Shown here: in pieces, positions 4,318 through 23,690 of the stretch
How positions within the stretch are numbered: position 1 is the first letter of the stretch
How the letters are laid out: every line of letters begins with the position of its first letter
NCBI GenBank assembly: GCA_963575745.1
Contig: CAUYUJ010005002.1
Location: forward strand, 779,479 to 843,478
Source of the DNA: Prorocentrum cordatum
Taxonomy: Eukaryota > Sar > Dinophyceae > Prorocentrales > Prorocentraceae
DNA: 64,000 nt
Direction: 5' to 3'
The notes under the pieces: model-generated
Databases searched by the model: none
Told to the model about the DNA's origin: nothing
What the model saw: only the letters and a program-made list of their open reading frames with translations
Program-made: the position numbers and the translations under genes

Positions 4318-5192
4318 ATTCGTTACGCTTCGCGTATCCCCACCAGCCCATCTCACAACAGCAACTCTTGCGAAGCATGCCGACAGTCGTGTTTTTCAGG
4401 CGTGTGTCCGCTTGGCCCCGCATATCTCCCCTGCTCCTCCTTCCTCCCGCCTCCTTGTACATCCTCCTTGTGGGGGGAGCGGGAGAAGGTCGAGGCGGAG
4501 GAGGAGGGAGTGAAAGCGCTCCTCGCGGTTTGAGTCGTTTGGGGTTTCTCGTCCTGGTGTGAGTCGTTCGGGCCCTTCTTCCTGGTGTGAGTCGTTCGGG
4601 CTCTTCGTGGTGTGAGTCGTTCGGGCTCTTCGTCCTGGTGTGAGTCGTTCGGGCTTCTCGTGGTGTGAGTTGTTCGGGCCCCTCGTCCTGGTGTGAGTCG
4701 TTCGGGCCCCTCCTCCTGGTGTGACTCGTTCGGGCTCCTCGTGGTGTGAGTCGTTCGGGGCCCTCGTCGTGGTGTGAGTCGTTCGGGCTCCTCGTGGTGT
4801 GAGTCGTTCGGGCGCCTCGTCCTGGTGTGAGTCGTTCGGGCCCCTCCTTCTGGTGTGAGTCGTTCGGGCTCTTCGTGGTGTGAGTCGTTCGGGCCCCTCG
4901 TCCTGGTGTGAGTCGTTCGGGCTCCTCGGGGCGTGAGGCGTTCGGGCACCTCGCTCCCTTTTGGGGCGTCTTGGGGGCCTCTTGGCGGCCCCAGGGGCTT
5001 CCAGGAGCGTCTTGGGTGCCTTGGGAGAGCCTCTTCGGGCCTCTTGGGAGCCTCTTGGAGGCCGTTTGGGGCGTCTTGGGGGCCTCTTGGCGGCCCCAGG
5101 GGCTTCCAGGAGCGTCTTGGGTGCCTCGGGGGAGCCTCTTGGGGCCTCTTGGGGGCCTCTTGGGGGCATCTTGGGGGCCTCTTGGAGGCCTC
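4318..5192 (+). repeat. Left part of a dispersed composite repeat (host of LINE A)
   Basis: Three modules in order: a nearly unique stretch (4318-4440, almost identical to 45250-45362); a minisatellite of GTGTGAGTCGTTCGGG plus a variable TC-rich part (4505-4955); and a CTTGGGGGCCT array (4958-5192). The same three modules occur in the same order and orientation at 45250-46025, where no LINE intervenes. Confidence 0.85.
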
Positions 5193-5193
5193 T
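5180..5193 (+). repeat. Candidate target-site duplication, left copy
   Basis: TCTTGGAGGCCTCT lies directly against the spliced-leader 5' end and is repeated at 11197-11210 just after the A-tract. Because the surrounding array is repetitive, a chance match cannot be excluded. Confidence 0.6.
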
Positions 5194-5214
5194 CCGTAGC
5201 CATTTTGGCTCAAG
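5193..5214 (+). other. Complete dinoflagellate spliced-leader (DinoSL) sequence in the genome
   Basis: All 22 nt match the published DinoSL consensus (D followed by CCGTAGCC, ending in TTGGCTCAAG), with T at the degenerate first base. SL RNA genes carry a GT splice donor straight after CAAG; here CAAG is followed by ATGACT. This is therefore a spliced leader already joined to an mRNA body and copied back into DNA, not an SL RNA gene. Confidence 0.93.
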
Positions 5215-5309
5215 ATGACTATCACTTGGGGCTTCCGCCCTGGTGGTCAAAGGGATACCGCTAGACCGCGGCAGGCAGATCGGTTTACCGTTCGGCAGAC
5301 GGGCGCACG

Positions 5310-6274
5310 ATGTCGGCTGGGGGCTGGCCGCGCTCGTACAACGGCTACTGGTCTTGCAGCTGTGGGACGGCGGACAACTGCGCAACGCGCAAGAAGTGTC
5401 GGGGGTGTGGGACCCTTGGGCCGCGCAAAGAACTCACGTACAAGGACGTGCTGCGGGGCCGACAAAGCGGGAGGCGGCGCTCCAGAAGCAGGTGGACTTC
5501 ATGCGGGCAGAGCTGCAGGGCCTCAAGAAGCAGCAGCACGCCACGCAGGAGGAGGACGACGAGAAGCCTGTGGACTTGGATAAGCTCTTCAGGTGGGCCC
5601 AGTCCTGCAAGACCGAGTGGGGAGACCAGTCAGTCGAGTACCAGCAGGCTCAGGAGCGCTACATGCGCGCCAAGGATGCCAAGCGAAGCACGAAGCCGCA
5701 CTCGGCCCAGCTCACATTTGCAAGGGTGGCCAGAGAGAAGCTTGATAAGGAGGAGGCGGCAATCATCGACGAGGTCAAGCGGCACCAGAAGGCCACGCAG
5801 GAGGCGCAGGAGAAGCTCACCAAGAAGAGGGAGCAGCTCGAGGTCGCAAGGGCCAAGGAGTTGGAGCTTAAGGTCCAGGATGTATCCGTCAAAGGCAAGG
5901 GCTTCCTCACGGCCATGCAGAAGCAGTGCGAGGGTGCCGTCGAAGGCAGCGGCATCAGCAAGGCGCAGCACGAGCAGCTGTTCGCAGCGCTCGGCAAAGT
6001 GCTGGACAACGTCAAGGAGGAGCCCAAGGACGACGAGGACGGCATGGACACTGAGGAGGCTTGTGGTGCCCCTGCTGGTGGCAACAGTGGGGGCACAGGT
6101 GCAGCCAGAGGAACGCAATATGAACGCGAGCAGGGTCCGCAGCTGTCACCTGAAGAACAAGAGTGGCTACATGCAGGAGGGATTCCCGCGGACGCCAGCG
6201 AAGCACGGCGAAAGCGTTGGATGGAGGTGTGCGTCAGCCTGGCGGAGCATAACAAGCGGGCCAAGCGATCCTAG
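5310..6274 (+). pseudogene. LINE A ORF1: zinc-finger / coiled-coil RNA-binding protein, one frameshift
   Basis: The ATG at 5310 lies 95 nt after the spliced leader. The first 50 codons give a RanBP2-like zinc finger: W14, C16, C18, N23, C30, C33 (W-x-C-x-C-x4-N-x6-C-x2-C). At the G run near 5454-5458 one base appears to be missing; one extra G would join GVLRG-like codons to PTKREAALQKQ in the other frame. From there to the TAG at 6272 the protein is a long charged coiled coil (to about 5870) followed by an acidic stretch and a short C-terminal tail. In LINEs such proteins bind element RNA in the RNP; that role is inferred. An upstream ATG directly after the spliced leader (5215) opens a different frame. 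The overlapping Arg/Ser-rich reading of the 5310 frame after 5460 is a shadow. Confidence 0.78.
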
Positions 6275-6275
6275 C

Positions 6276-8150
6276 AGGCTGCGCAAGAACAAGCATGAGA
6301 GCCTCACACTGTGGACTTTCAACGGTTCGGGGTGGGGCATCATCAAGGAGATGATCGAAGGATCTGAAGGGGGCAAGCTGCAGTGCTACGCAGTGCAGGA
6401 GCATCGGCTCATGGACGACAGGATCGCGGTGGTGTCGCAGAGCATGAAGGTGCAGGGGTACCAGTTCGGCGGCGTAGCAGCGAACCAGACTATAGGACCA
6501 GGTGGAGAAGCAGGTGCCTCAGCGGGCGTTGCGGTGGTGGCGCCCAGGTGCATAGGCATGACCTACCTGTATGGCAAGGAGAAGTGGGACCTGTCACCGC
6601 GCAACAGTCCAGGGAGAGCTGTAGCTGCGTGGTTAGCGGTCGGTAAGGGCATCATCTACGCGTCGGTCTACTTGTGGACGGCGGAGGGCATGGCGTTCAG
6701 GAACGCGGAGATCATCAACAAGATAATTGGACAATTGGAGGCGATTGGAGCGCCGTGGATCATCGGGGGAGATGTCCAGGTGGCGCCCGAGAAGATGACG
6801 GAGGTAGAAAGCGTCAAGACGGCCAAGGCGCGAGTTGTAGCGTCAGGGGCCAGGTGCGGCACGTGCAGACATGCGCATGGTGCAAGTGAGATCGACTACT
6901 TCATCGTTTCGGGCAGCCTGGTCAGCCAGGTGATGGATGTCAGAGTGCAGGAGGAGTGGCCGTCGGCGCCCCACAAGCCAGCGGGGCTCACTCTCAGGCT
7001 AAAGGTGAAGGAGCGCATGGTCAGGGTGCTGGAGAAGCCGAAGGCTTTGCCAGAGCTGGGCATTGGCTGCACACCAGCGCCGCCTAGGTACCAGGACATC
7101 GCGAGTTTCGGGTCGCAGGTGGCTGCCAACCAGGCGTGGAAGCAGTATATGCAGACACTGGAGCAGGAGGCCTTTGCAGCGCGGGGTCTAGCATGGGCAC
7201 CGGACCATCCTGCAGCAGGACGGGCGGAGGAGCCGACTTGGAGGATCAAGCCGCTCAGCTTCGGCGGTGCCCACGTTCCGCCAGCAGCTAGAGAAGCAGT
7301 ATGGTGGAGGTGGTTAGCAAAGATTTTGCAGAATTTGCATGGGGCATATTCTAGGCTCAAGATGGCGAGAACAGGTGACATCCAGTGGCAACGGCAGCGG
7401 GAGGCAACTGCGCATGAGCACCAGTTCATCATCACGCGCCAGCGGACGAAGCACCTAAAAGCTGAGGAGCAGGGCAAGTGGCAGGCCAGGTGCGGGTTGC
7501 TGGCTGCTGGGTTACTCCGAGGAGCGTTAAAAGAGGCGAAGTTGCAGCAATGGATGCAAGAAAGCCAGGCCGAGATGAAGGAGTACGACCAGAAGCTTCT
7601 CAAGGAGAGGCGTGCACGGTGGGCAAACAGGCTGCAGGAGGCGGCAGCAGGTGCAGCGGGTGGCCTACACAAGCTAAGCAAGGCTGCTACCGTATGGAGG
7701 CCACGCAGGGGAGACACCATGGAGGGCTCGGCAGACCCCATCGAGGCGGCGGAGTACACCCTCAGGGAGTGGAAACAGATCTGGAGGGTCGGCGAGCAGA
7801 TCCAGGAGGAGGCAAGACCGTGGGAGTGCGAGGAGCGTGACAAGCTCGAGCCTTTCACGGGACAAGATGTGGACAAGCTCAAGGAGGTAGCCCGCACCTT
7901 CAGAAAGAATACGGGGGTCGGTGTCGACAGGTGGCATCCCTCCATGCTGCAGGGCGCGTCGGACGAAGCGTGCGACAAGCTGTTGGACTTCTACATGGAG
8001 GTGGAACGGACCTTGTACTGGCCCATCCACATGGGCACGGTGCTGTTCTTCATGATCCCGAAGACCTTCACCACGGACAGGGTCATCGGTTTGCTGCCCG
8101 CAGCCATCAGAGTGTGGGAAATTATGCGGGAGCCGTACATGGTCAAGTAG
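6276..8150 (+). pseudogene. LINE A ORF2, first half: APE-like endonuclease and RT N-terminus, ends at a TAG
   Basis: Same frame as 5310. An endonuclease/exonuclease/phosphatase domain starts near 6303 (LTLWTFNGSG): QEH gives the metal-binding Glu region, GGD at about 6766-6773 is followed by VQ where most family members have FN, and SEIDYF is at 6886-6903. The histidine of the usual SDH-P block appears as HKP near 6970. A linker with coiled-coil character follows, then the RT fingers (NTGVGVDRWHPS near 7910, MIPK near 8055). The frame is cut by TAG at 8148-8150 and continues in the same frame, as if CAG (Gln) had become TAG. No ATG lies near the domain start, so how ORF2 is translated (reinitiation, frameshift) is unknown. 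Confidence 0.82.
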
Positions 8151-11123
8151 GCCAAGCAGAACTACAGGCGCTGGGACTGCACGAGCTACGGTAAGGCGGC
8201 GGAGGACGCGGCCTGGGAGGTGTTGCTCAGCCACGAGATGGACGACGCGGAGGAGCAGAGCGAGGAGACGCAGGCTACGATCACGGCGGTGTTGGACTTG
8301 GTGAAGGCTTTCGGGAAGGCCAGCTTGCACGCATTGTGGGAAGCAGGGAAGCAGCTAAATTTCAACACGGGGGTGCTGGCTGTGATGTGCTCATATTTCG
8401 CCATGTGCAGGCGCCTCATCGTGGGTGGCTCGGTGTCCAGCGAAACCCAGACGGTGGCCACCATCGTCGCGGGTAGCCAGTTCTCGGTGTGCTTCTTGAA
8501 GATGGTCATCCAGTCCACGTTGGATGGCCTGGTGGTGGAGAGACCGAGGGCGCGTTGGAGAATGTATGTGGACGACCTGCGCGTGCGGTTACGACAGCAG
8601 CACCAGTACATCGTTACGGAGTTTGAAGAGACAATCGACAGTTGTTTCAGAGGCTTCGGGAATATAGGCTTGAAGTTCTCGGTGGGCAGCAAGGGTAAAG
8701 GCGCTGTGATGGCGAGCACTAAGTGGGCGCGAAAGGCCGTGACAGGGCCGATGCGTGAGCGAGGACTGCCGGTGGTGAGGGCCTGCCCGTACCTGGGGGT
8801 TGACATCGTCACGCATGGTACGGCGGCAAAGGCTATGAACGGCAAGAGGCATGCTATTATGAAGGCCAGGAGTCGGAGGCTGCTCACCCTGAAGGGAGGG
8901 CGCAAGATGACCAGGGGCGTTGGCTTGGTGTTCAAGTGTGGTCTAAAGCGCTCAGTCTTGCACGGGTGTAAGTGCTTAGGCATGCCAGACCACCAGCTAC
9001 GACAGCTACGACGTGAGGCAGGACGATTACTACCAGGAGGTCGTGGAGCCCGAAGCCTCACCCTCCAGCTGGCGGTTGCGCAGGAGGAGCCGACGTACGA
9101 GGTCACTGAGGCGCCGATAGTAAGGTGGGCGCGTGCAGTGTGGCATAGCGCACAAGACGAGGATGAAGCAGGACAATGGGACAGCATGGGCACCATGTTG
9201 CAGCAGGCGTGGAGACGGCAGCAGCAGGAGGTCGGCATGAAGCCAGCGTGGGCCCGAGTGAGGGGGCCAGCAGGTGCTGTCATCATGTCCATGAGAAGGG
9301 CCACGTGGGCGTGGCCTGCGTGGCATACTTTTGTCGCGAAGGAGGGCTTCGAGCTGAACATGCAGGAGGTGTGCCCTATGGACATTGCAGCGATGGTGCG
9401 CAAGGGCGCGCAGGCGACCCTCTGGGAGGAGTGGACGCAGGCGGAGGAGCTCAGGAGCCTGAACCCAATGCCTTTGGTGGCACCAGCGGTGGCGCAGTTG
9501 CGAGCACGTGAGTTCCCGAAGCATGCCAAGAATGCAGCGAAGAAGATCTTCATCGGAGGTGCGTGGACTATGGAGAAGCTTTGCAAATGTAATATCGTGC
9601 CCACGGACATCTGCATGGTTTGCGGCGAGGCGGTGGGCACCGAGCACCATCGGTATTACAAGTGCACCGCGCTCAGGGACCAGCGTCTGCAGGCGCAGGC
9701 GGACTGGCAGCACGTAGCCGAGCAGCAGGACACCAACATGCTGTGGACGCGGGGGCTGGTGAGGTCTCCAGAGGCGGACTGGAAGTTCGTTGGCATTGCG
9801 GAGGACCAGTACTACGAGCAGGTGGTCGACGGTGATGAGGACTATCTCACAGGCGACATCGTCTGTGATGGCTCCAAGCTCGGGTACAGCGACTGGGCGC
9901 AAACGGGCTGGGCAGCCATGTCGCTCACCGACGATGGCACGGCGAAGATGCAGATGTGGGGCCCGTTGCCTTGTACACTGCCGATCCATGGGAGGGTTAA
10001 GAGAGCAGAGATGTGGGCTTTTCTCAAGGTGCTGGAGCGGATGCTGCCGCCTGGTCGTGTGTATACAGACCACAAGGGCATCCTGGAAGGTTTGCAGAAA
10101 GGTGAGCGGTGGTGCACGAGCTGGAAGCGACCACATGCAGACCTACGGCGAAGGATTTGGCACAAGGTGAAGGACCTGGGCCTGGATACACAATGCGTGA
10201 TGCACGTGAAGGCCCACAGGTCCAAGGCCAGGATCCAGCAGCTCGAGGGCGACGACCTGAATATTGCGAAGGGCAACAGTGAGGTTGATTTGCTGGCGAA
10301 GGCGGGCGCGGAGCAGGACGCGCACTACGGCAAGCACCAGGCGCTGGAGGACCTTGCAGGGCGCGCGCGTTGGGCGCTGCAGAATATAGGATGGTGGTAC
10401 CAAAAGATGGGCGGTACGTGGCCAGACGTGCCGCCCAAAGCAAAAGGAGTACCGAGACGAAGAGTGCCGAAGCCGCTGCTCACCCTCACCGAGCACGATA
10501 TCGTGGAGACGGGTGGGTGGCAGGTATGCATAAGGTGTGGCATTCGTGCGGCGTCCAAGAGGATGCGCATAAAGCTGTGGCAAGCGGAATGCGTGCGACC
10601 ACGGTGGCAGGCGACAGGCTCGAGCAGCTCGGGGACAGGCAGGTCGCTGGAAGCCAGCGTTGCCATCGCGGCGGCAGCTGCAGCAGCAGCAGTAGCAGCG
10701 CGCCCAGAGGTACAACACGAAGATCGTGCAGAGCTTGAGGGGCAGGACAGGGCTCATCGTGTTGAAGTTCATGGGCCGTACGTCGTGTGTGTGGTGTGCG
10801 GGGCGCACTCGGCGAGGCGAAGGGCGGGTTTGGGCGTGGCATGCCCAGGCCCGCTGGCTCCTCGTGGGCGCTCCACAAAGGACGACGCAAAGAGGAAGAA
10901 GCGAGACAGGATTCTGGCTGGGAAGAATCCGCAGAACGGCAAGCCGCTGGAGCAGGGGATAGTCCTGCCTGGGCGGCGGGGGGCTTGAGAGCGAGCTCGC
11001 ATGGGGGAGCACCAGCTGCACTATGTGAGCATGGTGAACATGCTGGTGCAGATGAGGCTGGAGGGCCAGCCAACGTACGAGTTCGTGCTGGAGAACCAGC
11101 TGAACCAGGCCAGTCAGGCCTGA
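8151..11123 (+). pseudogene. LINE A ORF2, second half: RT palm, zinc knuckle, RNase H and C-terminal tail
   Basis: Direct in-frame continuation after the TAG. RT motif A reads LDLVKAFGK near 8292 (first Asp kept), and motif C is YVDD at 8565-8576. A C-x2-C-x7-H-x5-C knuckle begins at 9612. The RNase H domain has all four acidic positions: DGS (9867), AE (10008), TD (10068) and SEVD (10287). A low-complexity Ala/Arg-rich tail with CVVCG follows. The frame stops at TGA 10986-10988, but continues in the same frame for 44 more sense codons (HQLHYVSMVNML-like) to TGA at 11121, suggesting CGA changed to TGA. The protein would copy element RNA at the nicked target and remove the RNA strand. Confidence 0.85.
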
Positions 11124-11174
11124 GGCGAGCCGCCGTCTGCGGCGAACGGGCCTCTTGGCGGGAGCCGCTGGAGG

Positions 11175-11193
11175 TTTTTTTGATGAAAAAAAA
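11175..11193 (+). other. LINE A 3'-terminal hairpin / A-tract
   Basis: Seven T, the loop GATG and eight A form a perfect short hairpin that also supplies the terminal A-tract. Its position directly before the candidate target-site duplication makes it the likely 3' end of the element. Confidence 0.65.
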
Positions 11194-11196
11194 GCA

Positions 11197-11210
11197 TCTT
11201 GGAGGCCTCT
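11197..11210 (+). repeat. Candidate target-site duplication, right copy
   Basis: Second copy of TCTTGGAGGCCTCT, three bases after the A-tract of LINE A. Confidence 0.6.
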
Positions 11211-18719: not shown

Positions 18720-19310
18720 CAGAGAGCGGATGCTGACAAAAGCGGTGCGCTGCCCGGACCCCAGCTGAAAGCCGGAGTGGATTATGTGATCAAGGCAGGA
18801 TGGGGGAGTTATTCGTGGGTCCCGTTTCCAGATGTTCCTGAGCTCGAAACATTGAGGCACGCGCGGGTGCTGGTGCGAAACGAGCGCCCGAGAAACCCCA
18901 GCTTTCATGGGGCGCCGCAGCCGAAACACGGAGCGGGGCAGGGGGATAGGAACGGGCTGTTGTTGATGGTATATTCCCGGGCCTTCACACTTCGCGACGA
19001 TGAAGAGTTCTCGGGGGCCGACTGCGGAGTGCCACACCTGCGAGAGTTCCGCGGGGGGCAGGGGTCACGGGCGGAGGCGTCTTTGGAATGGTTGAGGAAA
19101 GGCATGCCATGTGAAGAAACAAGGAGGTACGTGCAGAACTACATGGGCGTGGTGGATACGCGACCAGTCGCGGACGAAGATCTAGTCAAAGGCGAAGACG
19201 AGCTGCACAGCGATGAAGACTGGATCCGCGAATTGTCGACGCGGCGACTATGCGGAAGACGCACGTGGGAGGCGCGCCCATGGAGAAAGAGGACGGGCGG
19301 ACCAATGTAG
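18720..19310 (+). pseudogene. ORF segment upstream of the PIF1-like helicase, overlapping it in another frame
   Basis: About 190 codons ending in TAG at 19308. A plausible protein segment runs from GVDYVIKAGWGSYSW (about 18775) through HARVLVRNERPRNPSFHG and LLLMVYSRAFTLRDDEE to an acidic tail DLVKGEDELHSDEDW. It overlaps the start of the helicase ORF by 61 bases (19250-19310) in a different frame. The simplest explanation is that this is the N-terminal part of the same large helicase protein, separated by a frameshift near 19217-19310, as in Helitron-like or dinoflagellate PIF1 elements. No HUH nuclease motif is visible, so Helitron membership is unproven. Confidence 0.45.
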
Positions 19311-22210
19311 TCGCGGAGTGCGAAAAGGAGAAGAGCCGGGAGGCCATGGCCAGGGGCGACGCCGTTTGGGGCGAGATGACGAGTCGAAAGAACGGAAAGC
19401 GCAGAAAGCACGGAGAGGACGGCGTGTTGAGGTGGGATGACGCGGCAGTGAAAAGGGCGCAAGCGATGGCCGCGGCGTCGAGGGCGGCAGAAGGAGGCGG
19501 CGCCGGGGCAGCGGAAGGTGCTCCGGAAGTGGCCACGGCGAAAAAAGCGACGGCGTCGAGTGCTCGGGAGTGGAGATCCGGTCTTGCAAAGAGCGGACTG
19601 AATGAGAGACAACGGAGCGTCGTTGAGAAGGTGGCAGATCGAGTGTTGGCGCAAGAGTTCGCGAGTTCCGCGCAGGGAAGGACAAGAGGCCAGAGTCCTT
19701 CTGATATGCAGCCCCTCGTGTGGATGTTGCACGGTGGCCCGGGGGCGGGAAAGAGTTTCGTCATAGACGAGATCCGGAGGGAGCTGTTCGAAAAAGAGCC
19801 GGGGTGGACGCGCGGCATAGATTTCCAGGTATCAGCATCGCAGGCTACAAACGCGTCAGCTCTCGACGGAAACACGATTCACAGTGCATTTGGGCTCGGG
19901 GTGGCGAACGCGAAAGAGAAGAAGGACGCGGCGGGCGATGGCGACGCAGAAGCGAAGAAGAAAACTAAGAAAGAGCAAGCCGCGCAGCGTATGTCACAGT
20001 GGAAGTGGCTGATAGTGGACGAGGTGAGCATGGTCAGCGCGAACTTCATTGCAGAGCTAGACTCACACTTGCGGTCGTGCATGTCAGTTGCAAGCGACGC
20101 GAAAGCAGGTGAAGACGGCATGACCAGGCCCTTCGGGGGCGTGAATGTGCTGTTCTGCTGGGATTTCTATCAATTGGACCCGCCGTCAGGGACAGCCATT
20201 AATGCGCTTCCGACGTCGTACTTGAAAAACGCAAGGAAATACGCACCGGGTGCCGCGGAGGACCACGGACAGCATATCTTTTGGGGAGCGGGTGGCGACG
20301 GCGCAGTGCAGGGAATGACAGAGTTGACAGAGTGCAAACGCATGGAGAATCAAGACGAGTGGTTTCTCGCTGTGCAGGACGAGTTCCGCCGAGGGGAGTT
20401 GTCGGAACGCACGCGCAATTTCTTGCATGGCAGACCGACGGATGTCCCGGGGTCGTGGGTGCACGGTGCACCGTTGTGCGGGAGCACGCGTTGTCTCGAA
20501 AGCACAGAAGCAATCGCGAAAGAAAACGTGCTCGAATGTGGCGCTTGCAAAGCTGAGCGGGGGAAGAGAAAACTCGTTGCGACGTCGCCAGAAGATGCGC
20601 GGTTTCGGGAGAAGAAATTCCTTGAAGCAGTTGCCATTCATGCGAATCAAGACATTCGCTGTCGCGCCGGGAAGCAGAGAGCTGTGCCATGGGCGAAGGA
20701 GCGCGGAGAACAGTTGCTGTGGGTCGCAGCCAGGGGCCGCCCTTGCCATGGGGGAGAACAGAGGCGGCCGTGCACGATAGAGGACAAGATACGTTGGCTG
20801 GGGTACCATGAGAAGGAATGCGCAAGCTTGCCCGGGTGGCTGCCGTTGGCGAAGGGGATGCCCGTGGCTTTGGGAGATCACTTGGATCGGTCAAAGAAGC
20901 AGCTCCTGCGGGGGCGCACGGCGACGATCCATGGATGGGCGTTGCACGAGGATGAGGTCGTTCGAGACGGCGACGAGGAAGTATTGATGCATCTGCCGAG
21001 AGTGATTGTGTTGGACTTCCATACGAAAGAGTGGCACCTGCCAGGGTGGGGGCCGGGGCTGCATCCGATCTTCCCATCGAAAGGGCGGAAATGGTTCTTG
21101 GATGGATATCGGAAGCATCCAGTATTGAGTGTGAAGCGCACGCAGTTTATGATCACCCCGGCTTTGGCAGTGACGGCGCACTCTGCGCAGGGCCGGACCA
21201 TGGCTGCAGTGATAGCAAACCTTGAAAGAGGGCGCGGCGTGAGTTGGATGGCAAGTTACGTTGCCGTCGCGCGCGTGCGGAGGCGGGAGGACTTGTTGAT
21301 TTTCAGGCCTTTCGATAGGAAGCCGCGCAACGCGGGGGAGATGCCAGGCGCAAAGAAGTTGTTGCAGGTGCTTCGCGGGGAGAGAGTGGAGTGGGATGAG
21401 TGGGGAGAGGAACTAATGCCACGAGACCAGTGCGAGCGCTGCCGGCGGAGGTTGTTGGTAGAGGCGTTCACGAAGTACGAGTTCCAGAGAAAGGAAAGGC
21501 CGGCGTTCTGCAAAGAGTGCACGGAGGAGATGAAAAGCGCGGGCGAGAAATGGTGCAAGACGCGCAGAGGGTGGGCAACGAGAGGAGAGAGTGACGACGC
21601 GGCGCGCCATGGCAGCGGTCGGAACGCGGATGCGGCGGCCGACGACGGGGAAACGAAAAGGATTAGGACAATGTGCTGCGCGAAGTGCAGCGGTATCAAA
21701 GCCAAGCAGAACTCGCGGAAAGACAGCGCGAAGTGGAATCAGAGCGTCGGAACAGTGCGATGTACGAACGGTAAGTGCCTGTCGCTATATGACGAAAAGG
21801 CGGATATGTCGGAAGCTCAGAAGAAGCACAATGCTGCGGGGGAAAGGCTCTGTCGGAAATGCGCGGAAGAACGAGAGAAAGAGGTGCGACGGGGGAATGC
21901 GGAGGCAGCGAATCGCAAGCGGAAAGCCGAGGCGGACGCGAAGCCACTGACGTGTGCGGCGTGCGGAGAAGCGTTGATGGACACGAAACATTTGAAGCAT
22001 AAGCAAGTGGAAGATCATCGAGCGGCGAAAGGAGCGAAAGTTGTGTGCGGAGGCTGCAAGAACCTCGGGTTCACAGCCCGCAGTTGCCAGGCGCATCAGT
22101 GCGGCGGCGCGTGCAAGCGAAGACTACCGAAGTCGGCGTTCTCCGGGAACCCTGCCAACGTCGCGCGCGATGCAACACAGGGCACCCTGATATGCAAGAC
22201 CTGCAAATGA
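19250..22210 (+). CDS. PIF1-like DNA helicase with C-terminal zinc fingers
   Basis: An uninterrupted 986-codon ORF; the in-frame upstream stop is TGA 19214, and ATG 19250 is the first start, with ATG 19280 as alternative. Walker A GGPGAGKS at residues 162-169, Walker B LIVDE at 254-258, a WDFYQLDPP motif III-like block near 304-312, TAHSAQGRT (motif V) near 640-648, and YVAVARVRRREDLLIF (motif VI) near 669-684: the SF1B order of PIF1 helicases. After about residue 725 there are repeated CxxC pairs. Two of them (CERC...FCKEC, and GACKRRLPKSAFS...CKTC at the end) resemble Stc1-type zinc modules. PIF1 enzymes unwind DNA 5' to 3' with ATP; in dinoflagellates they are highly multiplied and often part of transposons. 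Probably mobile-element derived, and the best-preserved coding unit in the window. Confidence 0.85.
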   Translation: MRKTHVGGAPMEKEDGRTNVVAECEKEKSREAMARGDAVWGEMTSRKNGKRRKHGEDGVLRWDDAAVKRAQAMAAASRAAEGGGAGAAEGAPEVATAKKATASSAREWRSGLAKSGLNERQRSVVEKVADRVLAQEFASSAQGRTRGQSPSDMQPLVWMLHGGPGAGKSFVIDEIRRELFEKEPGWTRGIDFQVSASQATNASALDGNTIHSAFGLGVANAKEKKDAAGDGDAEAKKKTKKEQAAQRMSQWKWLIVDEVSMVSANFIAELDSHLRSCMSVASDAKAGEDGMTRPFGGVNVLFCWDFYQLDPPSGTAINALPTSYLKNARKYAPGAAEDHGQHIFWGAGGDGAVQGMTELTECKRMENQDEWFLAVQDEFRRGELSERTRNFLHGRPTDVPGSWVHGAPLCGSTRCLESTEAIAKENVLECGACKAERGKRKLVATSPEDARFREKKFLEAVAIHANQDIRCRAGKQRAVPWAKERGEQLLWVAARGRPCHGGEQRRPCTIEDKIRWLGYHEKECASLPGWLPLAKGMPVALGDHLDRSKKQLLRGRTATIHGWALHEDEVVRDGDEEVLMHLPRVIVLDFHTKEWHLPGWGPGLHPIFPSKGRKWFLDGYRKHPVLSVKRTQFMITPALAVTAHSAQGRTMAAVIANLERGRGVSWMASYVAVARVRRREDLLIFRPFDRKPRNAGEMPGAKKLLQVLRGERVEWDEWGEELMPRDQCERCRRRLLVEAFTKYEFQRKERPAFCKECTEEMKSAGEKWCKTRRGWATRGESDDAARHGSGRNADAAADDGETKRIRTMCCAKCSGIKAKQNSRKDSAKWNQSVGTVRCTNGKCLSLYDEKADMSEAQKKHNAAGERLCRKCAEEREKEVRRGNAEAANRKRKAEADAKPLTCAACGEALMDTKHLKHKQVEDHRAAKGAKVVCGGCKNLGFTARSCQAHQCGGACKRRLPKSAFSGNPANVARDATQGTLICKTCK

Positions 22211-22570: not shown

Positions 22571-22639
22571 CTCTGGGTTATGGGTTTTGGGTTAGAGGCG
22601 TCTTGCACCAGCTTGGGACCAATTTGGAGACAGGTTTTG

Positions 22640-23690
22640 CCGTCGTGGGGTCGTCTTAGGCCGAATTGGGAGGCGTCCTGGGCCGTGTTGTGATTCTCTG
22701 GGGCCGTCTTGAGGCCCTCTTGGGGCGCCGTGGGGCGATGTTGGAGGCTCTTTGGGCTACGTGAGCCGACGGAAGCCGGGAAAGGCAACAATTGCAAACA
22801 TGTTCAACAACGCAATGGAAATGTAATGAAATGCGTAATGTGCGCCTCTTTCAGATGTCCTGGGGGTCTTCTTGGAGACTTCGTGGGCGATAGTGAAAGC
22901 CTTTTAGGCCATCTTGAGACCATCTTGGGCCGTCTTCGAACTGTCTTGGGCCGTCTTGGAGCCATCTTGGGCCGTTTTGGAGCAGTCCTGGGCCGTTTTG
23001 GAGCAATCTTGGCCTCGAGAGCGCGAATCTTTTTTTTGGGCGCAAACGCAACCCCGCCACCGTGCCTGGGTTGTTGATATGAGATTTGTGCGGTGATCGT
23101 TGGGATCTCTTGGGGCGCTTCTCGCGGGACTTTTGGAGGCAGTTTCGAAGCCTCTTGGGGGCCGTTGTGAGGCCGTTTTGGAGCCTCTTGGGGGCCTCTT
23201 GGTGCCTCTTGTGGGCGTCTTGGGGGCCTCTTGGGGCCTCTTGGGGCGTCTTGGGGCGGAAGGCTTGGATTGTCGGTTCGGGCTCCCCCTCTTGGGCACC
23301 TCTTGGGGCCGTCTTGGGGCCCTCTTGGGCTGTCTTGGGGGCCTTTTGGGCCGTCTTGGCGCCCTCTTGGGCCGACTTGGGCGCCTCTTGGGGGCCTCTC
23401 GGGGCGGTCTTGGGGTGCTCTGGGACCGTCTTCAACGCCGTGAAGGCCGAGAAGTAGTATATGATCAAGATGTACGTTTTCCCATAGGAATTTGACGATT
23501 TTCGGCGCGTCGGCCCTTCTGAGGACTGCTCTTGGATGCCTCTTGGGCCGTCTTGGAGGGCTCTCGGCTCGTCTTGGCGGCATCTTGGGCGTCTGGGAGC
23601 GCTCGTTTGGCGCCTCGGAGCTCTCGTGAGCCGTCTTGGAGGAGTCTTGGGGCCTTCTTGGCCCGTCTTGATCCCCTTTTGGGCCCAAAA
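22640..23690 (+). repeat. CTTGGGCCGTCTTGG-type arrays, four blocks
   Basis: Blocks at about 22640-22750, 22858-23010, 23097-23450 and 23525-23690 consist of 10-12-bp units such as CTTGGGGCCGT and CTTGGGGGCCT, separated by short unique pieces. They give false ORFs such as WAVLEPSWAVL on plus and RPKRPPRGP on minus. Confidence 0.85.

Follow-up and report, generated by a model that had tools for sequence, protein, structure and literature searches.

The window analysed here, a 64-kb stretch of the Prorocentrum cordatum genome, contains a 6.0-kb LINE (5193–11193) inserted in a GCCTCTTGGGGG minisatellite. The first 22 nucleotides of the element, TCCGTAGCCATTTTGGCTCAAG (5193–5214, plus strand), are a complete dinoflagellate spliced leader (DinoSL, or SL) with T as its first base and 0 mismatches. 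This is the sole match within the window at up to 3 mismatches, and dinucleotide shuffles of the window gave an SL match in 0 of 100 cases. An array of the GCCTCTTGGGGG type lies upstream of the SL, and the same array picks up again after the terminal A8 of the element (11186–11193, plus strand); most copies of the element are A-rich at the same place. With array DNA on both sides, the SL sits exactly at the 5′ boundary of the insertion. The bases directly 3′ of the SL, from 5215 on, are ATGAC. A 38-nt leader (5215–5252, plus strand), whose ATG abuts the SL at 5215, extends to a conserved 5′-UTR box, GGATACCGCTAGACCGCGG (5253–5271, plus strand), which fits the pattern GGATACCGCTAGNCCGCGG. The ATG of ORF1 is located at 5310, 95 nt downstream of the SL. 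The sequence-only reading had placed a full DinoSL exactly at the 5′ boundary of the LINE, with no GT donor after it and 95 nt before ORF1, and the exact match, the flanking array and the positions given here bear this out.

The insertion is bracketed by a target-site duplication. The 5′ copy, GCCTCTTGGAGGCCTC (5177–5192, plus strand), was read directly in the array and is identical in 15 of 16 positions to the 3′ copy, GCATCTTGGAGGCCTC (11194–11209, plus strand), which was read directly and also found by duplication scoring; the best scored stretch is TCTTGGAGGCCTCT, with 14 of 14 positions matching. GCCTCTTGGGGG-like and GTGTGAGTCGTTCGGGC units form long arrays at 4540–5190 and 22600–23400 of the window, and the GCCTCTTGGGGG-like array type is the target of the LINE family in the window. 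Elsewhere in the window (19250–22210), a 986-aa ORF in repeat-rich surroundings contains a PIF1-like helicase domain (E 2.4e-14) and is possibly part of another mobile element.

ORF1 (5310–6274, plus strand; start MSAGGWPRSYNGYWSCSCG) is known from translations and changes frame between ~5450 and ~5500 in the window copy; the P. cordatum gene model P0005 opens with a sequence nearly identical to the ORF1 start. ORF2 begins with a predicted APE-type endonuclease domain (6282–7019, plus strand), whose modelled fold matches APE1/ExoIII and the LINE-1 endonuclease at a mean pLDDT of 58.9, which is low confidence; a Pfam search gave no endonuclease match in the window copy. An in-frame TAG (8148–8150, plus strand), visible in sequence and translations, interrupts ORF2. 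Further downstream are a reverse transcriptase domain with YVDD (8238–8681, plus strand; RVT_1 E 0.0018, below Pfam's cut-off, residues 30–177 of P0002) and an RNase H domain (9987–10310, plus strand; RNase_H E 0.00023, below Pfam's cut-off, residues 613–720 of P0002). Where the sequences align, the reverse transcriptase shares 81–91% identity with several P. cordatum gene models, and RVT_1 matches its relatives P0005 and P0009 with E 0.00023 and 0.001. A sequence search of the PDB with P0005 and a search of viral contigs with the ORF2 protein gave no match. The earlier description as an otherwise standard two-ORF LINE needs correcting in that this copy is damaged, by the frame change in ORF1 and the TAG in ORF2.

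The element is a member of the non-LTR retrotransposons (LINEs) of the APE-endonuclease type. It has a reverse transcriptase, matched weakly by RVT_1 in the window copy and found also in its relatives and in the box family L144 described below, and an APE-like endonuclease according to the fold matches of the predicted model. Target-site duplications and an A-rich 3′ tail are present in all 12 scored copies. Truncation at the 5′ end is variable: L126 and L128 begin inside ORF1 beside array DNA, and in L122 the truncation falls inside the SL.

The assembly comprises 4.13 Gb in 21,875 contigs and contains 14,218 exact copies of the 21-nt SL, against 0 of the reversed word, so an SL in the DNA is not rare per se and it is its position that matters. 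A family search with the DNA of 5193–6300 as query, in which 40 of 257 candidates were scored, gave 42 matches, and 33 of these (the window counted), with 68–100% identity, open with the first or second base of the SL. The 5′ ends of 38 of the 41 non-window matches were retrieved. Thirty-two retain 20–22 of the 22 SL bases flush with target DNA, L122 has just TTGGCTCAAG of the SL left, and the matches of L102, L126, L127, L128 and L129 start further in. Upstream of the 32 SL-headed copies lies target array that varies between copies. Shared flanks identify L094/L095 and L113/L114 each as copies of one insertion. No shared non-SL sequence was found upstream of the full-length copies retrieved. 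These counts bear out the expectation that other copies begin with DinoSL, and neither of the contrary patterns that the sequence-only reading had envisaged appears: no retrieved full-length copy extends upstream into non-SL element sequence, and the SL word does not belong to the surrounding repeat, since the target duplications lack it. The SL as LINE 5′ end is confirmed as general in this genome.

As the target is a repeat, the window duplication alone is ambiguous, and 1 of 150 shifted controls scored equally high. We therefore compared own with mismatched flank pairs in 12 copies: the window plus 11 others whose 3′ end could be located among the 14 retrieved, the remaining three being dropped. 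In these copies the bases that run up to the SL match those behind the tail for 14–18 bp; own pairs score 15.08 versus 10.83 for mismatched pairs, and 0 of 20,000 permutations were as good. The duplication lies at most 3 nt from the tail in 11 of the 12 copies; in L130 the best-scoring duplication is ~20 nt beyond it, and runs of T occur close to the tail in L134 and L136. Because the duplications abut the SL, the SL is where the reverse-transcribed RNA really began. At many of the first 30 SL loci in the genome a T precedes CCGTAG, even after GGA arrays, so this T is likely SL-derived and copying likely reached the end of the leader.

The 19-nt box GGATACCGCTAGNCCGCGG occurs 2,381 times without mismatch in the genome (reversed control, 0), and 1,834 of these have the intact SL end TTTTGGCTCAAG 15–45 nt upstream (reversed control, 0). 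The distance from SL to box is mostly 26, 38 or 39 nt in the 62 leaders examined. Among the first 30 box loci, 28 carry at least 17 of 21 SL bases, 17 of them exactly, compared with a maximum of 16 in 600 control pieces. Pyrimidines make up at least 80% of the 30 nt preceding the SL in 24 of these 30 loci and less than 80% in the other six; in none is this stretch mainly purine. Over the whole genome, (CTC)n upstream of the SL gave 1,644 matches on the minus strand and, with overlapping starts counted, 3,520 on the plus strand. Known LINE proteins have no match in the first 1.5 kb of the 30 box loci, so that the putative kinship of the other box families is judged from the SL, the box, one reverse transcriptase and zinc ribbons. 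The reverse transcriptase was found in the one distant box family tested (L144; E 2.4e-7, above Pfam's cut-off), and zinc ribbons of the CxxC type occur in 13 of 28 box loci. The first 30 SL loci, a set taken without regard to the box, include 8 that match it in at least 13/19 positions at the expected offset, and 7 others that lie behind purine arrays and all lack the box.

Several further SL-associated arrangements were observed. L004, L011, L014, L016, L017, L019 and L021 are SL-headed and boxless and follow purine (GGA)n arrays, in an orientation opposite to that of the box LINEs; another LINE type may have mobilised them. In 23 of 29 elements (the window, at 5215, and L032–L061) an ATG stands directly or almost directly next to the SL. 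Read in the frame of an SL-adjacent ATG, the box gives DTASPR or similar in 44 of 47 hand-picked leaders, and the zinc-ribbon ORF1 occupies a fixed frame other than that of the SL-adjacent ATG in 9 of 10 cases. This ATG possibly opens an upstream ORF. SL-like words ending in CTCAAA occur several times per contig (G000:C5002:1225106-1277004 and C4422:229-58675) and are perhaps tandem copies of one unit. A search of viral contigs with the SL pattern identified one unrelated contig. This AT-rich contig, L001 (IMGVR_UViG_3300045993_001077), is filed as viral, has a glycosyltransferase gene and contains two exact 21-nt DinoSLs, one of which is followed by a GC-rich 254-aa ORF with no Pfam match. 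This stretch (minus strand, 2766 down to ~1830) looks like a dinoflagellate mRNA copied into the genome of a large DNA virus.

To follow changes in the SL, a tree of the 31 independent insertions was computed from sequence other than the SL, and 21 SL columns were scored on it; copies with a mutated SL include L093, L100 and L108. The SL columns show 16 changes and 0 inherited carriers, where columns matched for number of changes have 23.6 inherited carriers on average and only 5 of 20,000 draws gave 0. Outside the SL, all 155 21-column segments of the 5′ region have at least 10 inherited carriers. In the uncollapsed set of 33 there are 17 SL changes and 1 carrier, which is a shared-flank pair. 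The lack of inherited SL changes means that either the SL is renewed in each cycle or copies with a damaged SL are immobile.

Stacked SLs bear on this choice. Exact stack junctions number 1,813 in the genome (overlaps counted), and stacked SLs precede the box in 51 matches, which fall at 49 places; in some stacks the inner SL is mutated and the outer one intact. The stacks speak for renewal of the SL. They are less common in front of the box than among genomic SLs in general, and this box-linked rarity would fit a preferred acceptor at the terminal CTCAAG. The alternative acceptor, CCGTAG, lies just 6 nt from the edge of the copy, and splicing at that site would need a branch point in the flanking DNA. 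The last G is broken in 129 of 1,942 inner SLs versus 600 of 14,818 outer SLs, with 195 at a control position of the outer SLs.

The best reading of these data, to which we assign a probability of about three in four, is that the LINE RNA is trans-spliced by the host and the SL re-added in each cycle. Transcription would enter the LINE from flanking DNA, and the host SL RNA would be joined to the LINE pre-mRNA by trans-splicing, in most cases at the terminal AG of the old SL (CTCAAG|). Such a splice would swap the old SL for a new one of equal length. Target-primed reverse transcription would then copy the LINE RNA up to its capped 5′ end, so that the host would rebuild the 5′ end of the LINE in every cycle. 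Occasional use of the AG in CCGTAG, within the old SL, may generate the stacked CCATTTTGGCTCAAG. The element would accordingly depend on host trans-splicing, a dependence supported indirectly because SL changes are not inherited and SLs are stacked.

The strongest competing explanation, which we regard as unlikely, holds that an ancestor captured the SL once and that it is now an inherited functional part, serving translation, export or promoter start; transcription would begin at the genomic SL itself, and any copy whose SL is damaged would be immobile. This accounts for the universal SL and for the absence of inherited SL mutations, and the intact TTTTGGCTCAAG before 1,834 of the 2,381 boxes is in its favour. 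However, stacks would require splicing onto a transcript that reaches upstream of the SL, and the other conserved 5′ columns do show inherited changes in every one of the 155 segments. A single accident, in which one LINE mRNA was trans-spliced and retrocopied without relevance to the cycle of the family, has precedents in the well-known retrogenes with relict DinoSL (in the available portions of PMC6050394 and PMC12014239) and could draw on the many exact SL copies in the genome; it is nevertheless very improbable and is ruled out by the copy survey, as the SL heads 33 of 42 scored family matches and 28 of 30 box loci. Least probable by far is a SL that is part of the target repeat, or an element sitting in an SL gene as SLACS/CZAR do: the SL does adjoin target DNA, but the flanks, which are minisatellite or (CTC)n arrays, and the duplications, which lack the SL, rule this out, and the 64-kb window holds one SL though the array is longer.

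SLACS, CZAR and CRE are trypanosomatid LINEs that insert into SL RNA genes. They resemble the present element as LINEs linked to the spliced leader, but they target the SL RNA genes, whereas here the element carries the SL and its target is a mini- or microsatellite; given the array flanks and the duplications without SL, the element is not inserted in an SL RNA gene. An Rfam cmscan of 4900–5700 up to E 10 gave 16 matches, none of them credible and none to an HDV-type ribozyme, although a diverged one could escape such a search. The 5′ end differs from that of the trypanosomatid L1Tc/ingi elements, which, according to the available text of PMC4748587, share the APE-type endonuclease, reverse transcriptase and RNase H and a host with SL trans-splicing. 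In L1Tc the promoter, Pr77, is internal and is combined with an HDV-like ribozyme; its transcripts are described there as unspliced and without SL.

DinoSL-tagged retrogenes of dinoflagellates were reportedly described by Slamovits and Keeling in 2008. Genomic DinoSL has been treated as a retrogene tag, with LINEs or other retroelements named as the likely machinery, in the accessible parts of PMC12014239, PMC11453091, PMC8045281, PMC10235124 and PMC6050394. Such retrogenes are alike in having a full or truncated 5′ DinoSL on retrocopied RNA and stacked CCATTTTGGCTCAAG relicts after repeated rounds (PMC6050394, PMC12014239, as far as available). They are, however, host genes copied in trans, whereas the tagged unit here encodes endonuclease, reverse transcriptase and RNase H and has the SL as its general 5′ end. 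A host-gene retrocopy made in trans was rejected for this unit, which is multi-copy and has all three activities of its own. In endogenous copies of dinoRNAV, 6 of the 26 integrated RdRp genes have an SL no more than 500 bp away (PMC10235124, in the part available). These are likewise non-host RNAs with a 5′ DinoSL, but they represent a virus copied in by the machinery of others, with mimicry suggested for the free virus, in contrast to a self-copying element with one SL per copy. The available text of the P. cordatum genome paper discusses the SL in transcripts, not in LINEs (PMC10666404). The literature covered, which mostly leaves out subscription papers, yielded no description of an SL at LINE 5′ ends. 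The element works like a LINE with RNA that matures in the manner of a host mRNA, with a 5′ end not described in that literature.

A wider proposal, more tentative than the trans-splicing reading itself, is that these LINEs are promoterless and ride host read-through transcripts, trans-splicing being obligatory. The old SL would provide the acceptor AG, and the pyrimidine tract would be provided, for the box families that land in (CTC)n arrays, by a target whose pyrimidine strand always lies upstream, so that target choice would install the next splice site. The SL would then be a terminus that the host encodes and that renews itself, and much of the genomic DinoSL hitherto read as retrogene tags would mark LINEs. 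The window's own target is not pyrimidine-rich, however, and the six box loci with flanks below 80% pyrimidine also run counter to this idea of the splice site.

How LINEs keep a precise 5′ end and are expressed in trans-splicing genomes is a question that those of trypanosomatids answer with a promoter and a ribozyme (PMC4748587, available text). Here the host's spliced leader seems to fill that role, so that a mobile element would depend on a single host RNA. Retrogene counts made from DinoSL relicts will include LINEs, because the LINE box stands where expected in 8 of 30 unselected SL copies. For the long-sought source of the reverse transcriptase behind dinoflagellate retrogenes, this gives a simple rule of substrate choice: if the machinery's own RNA begins with the SL, it can be expected to copy any SL-capped, polyadenylated mRNA.
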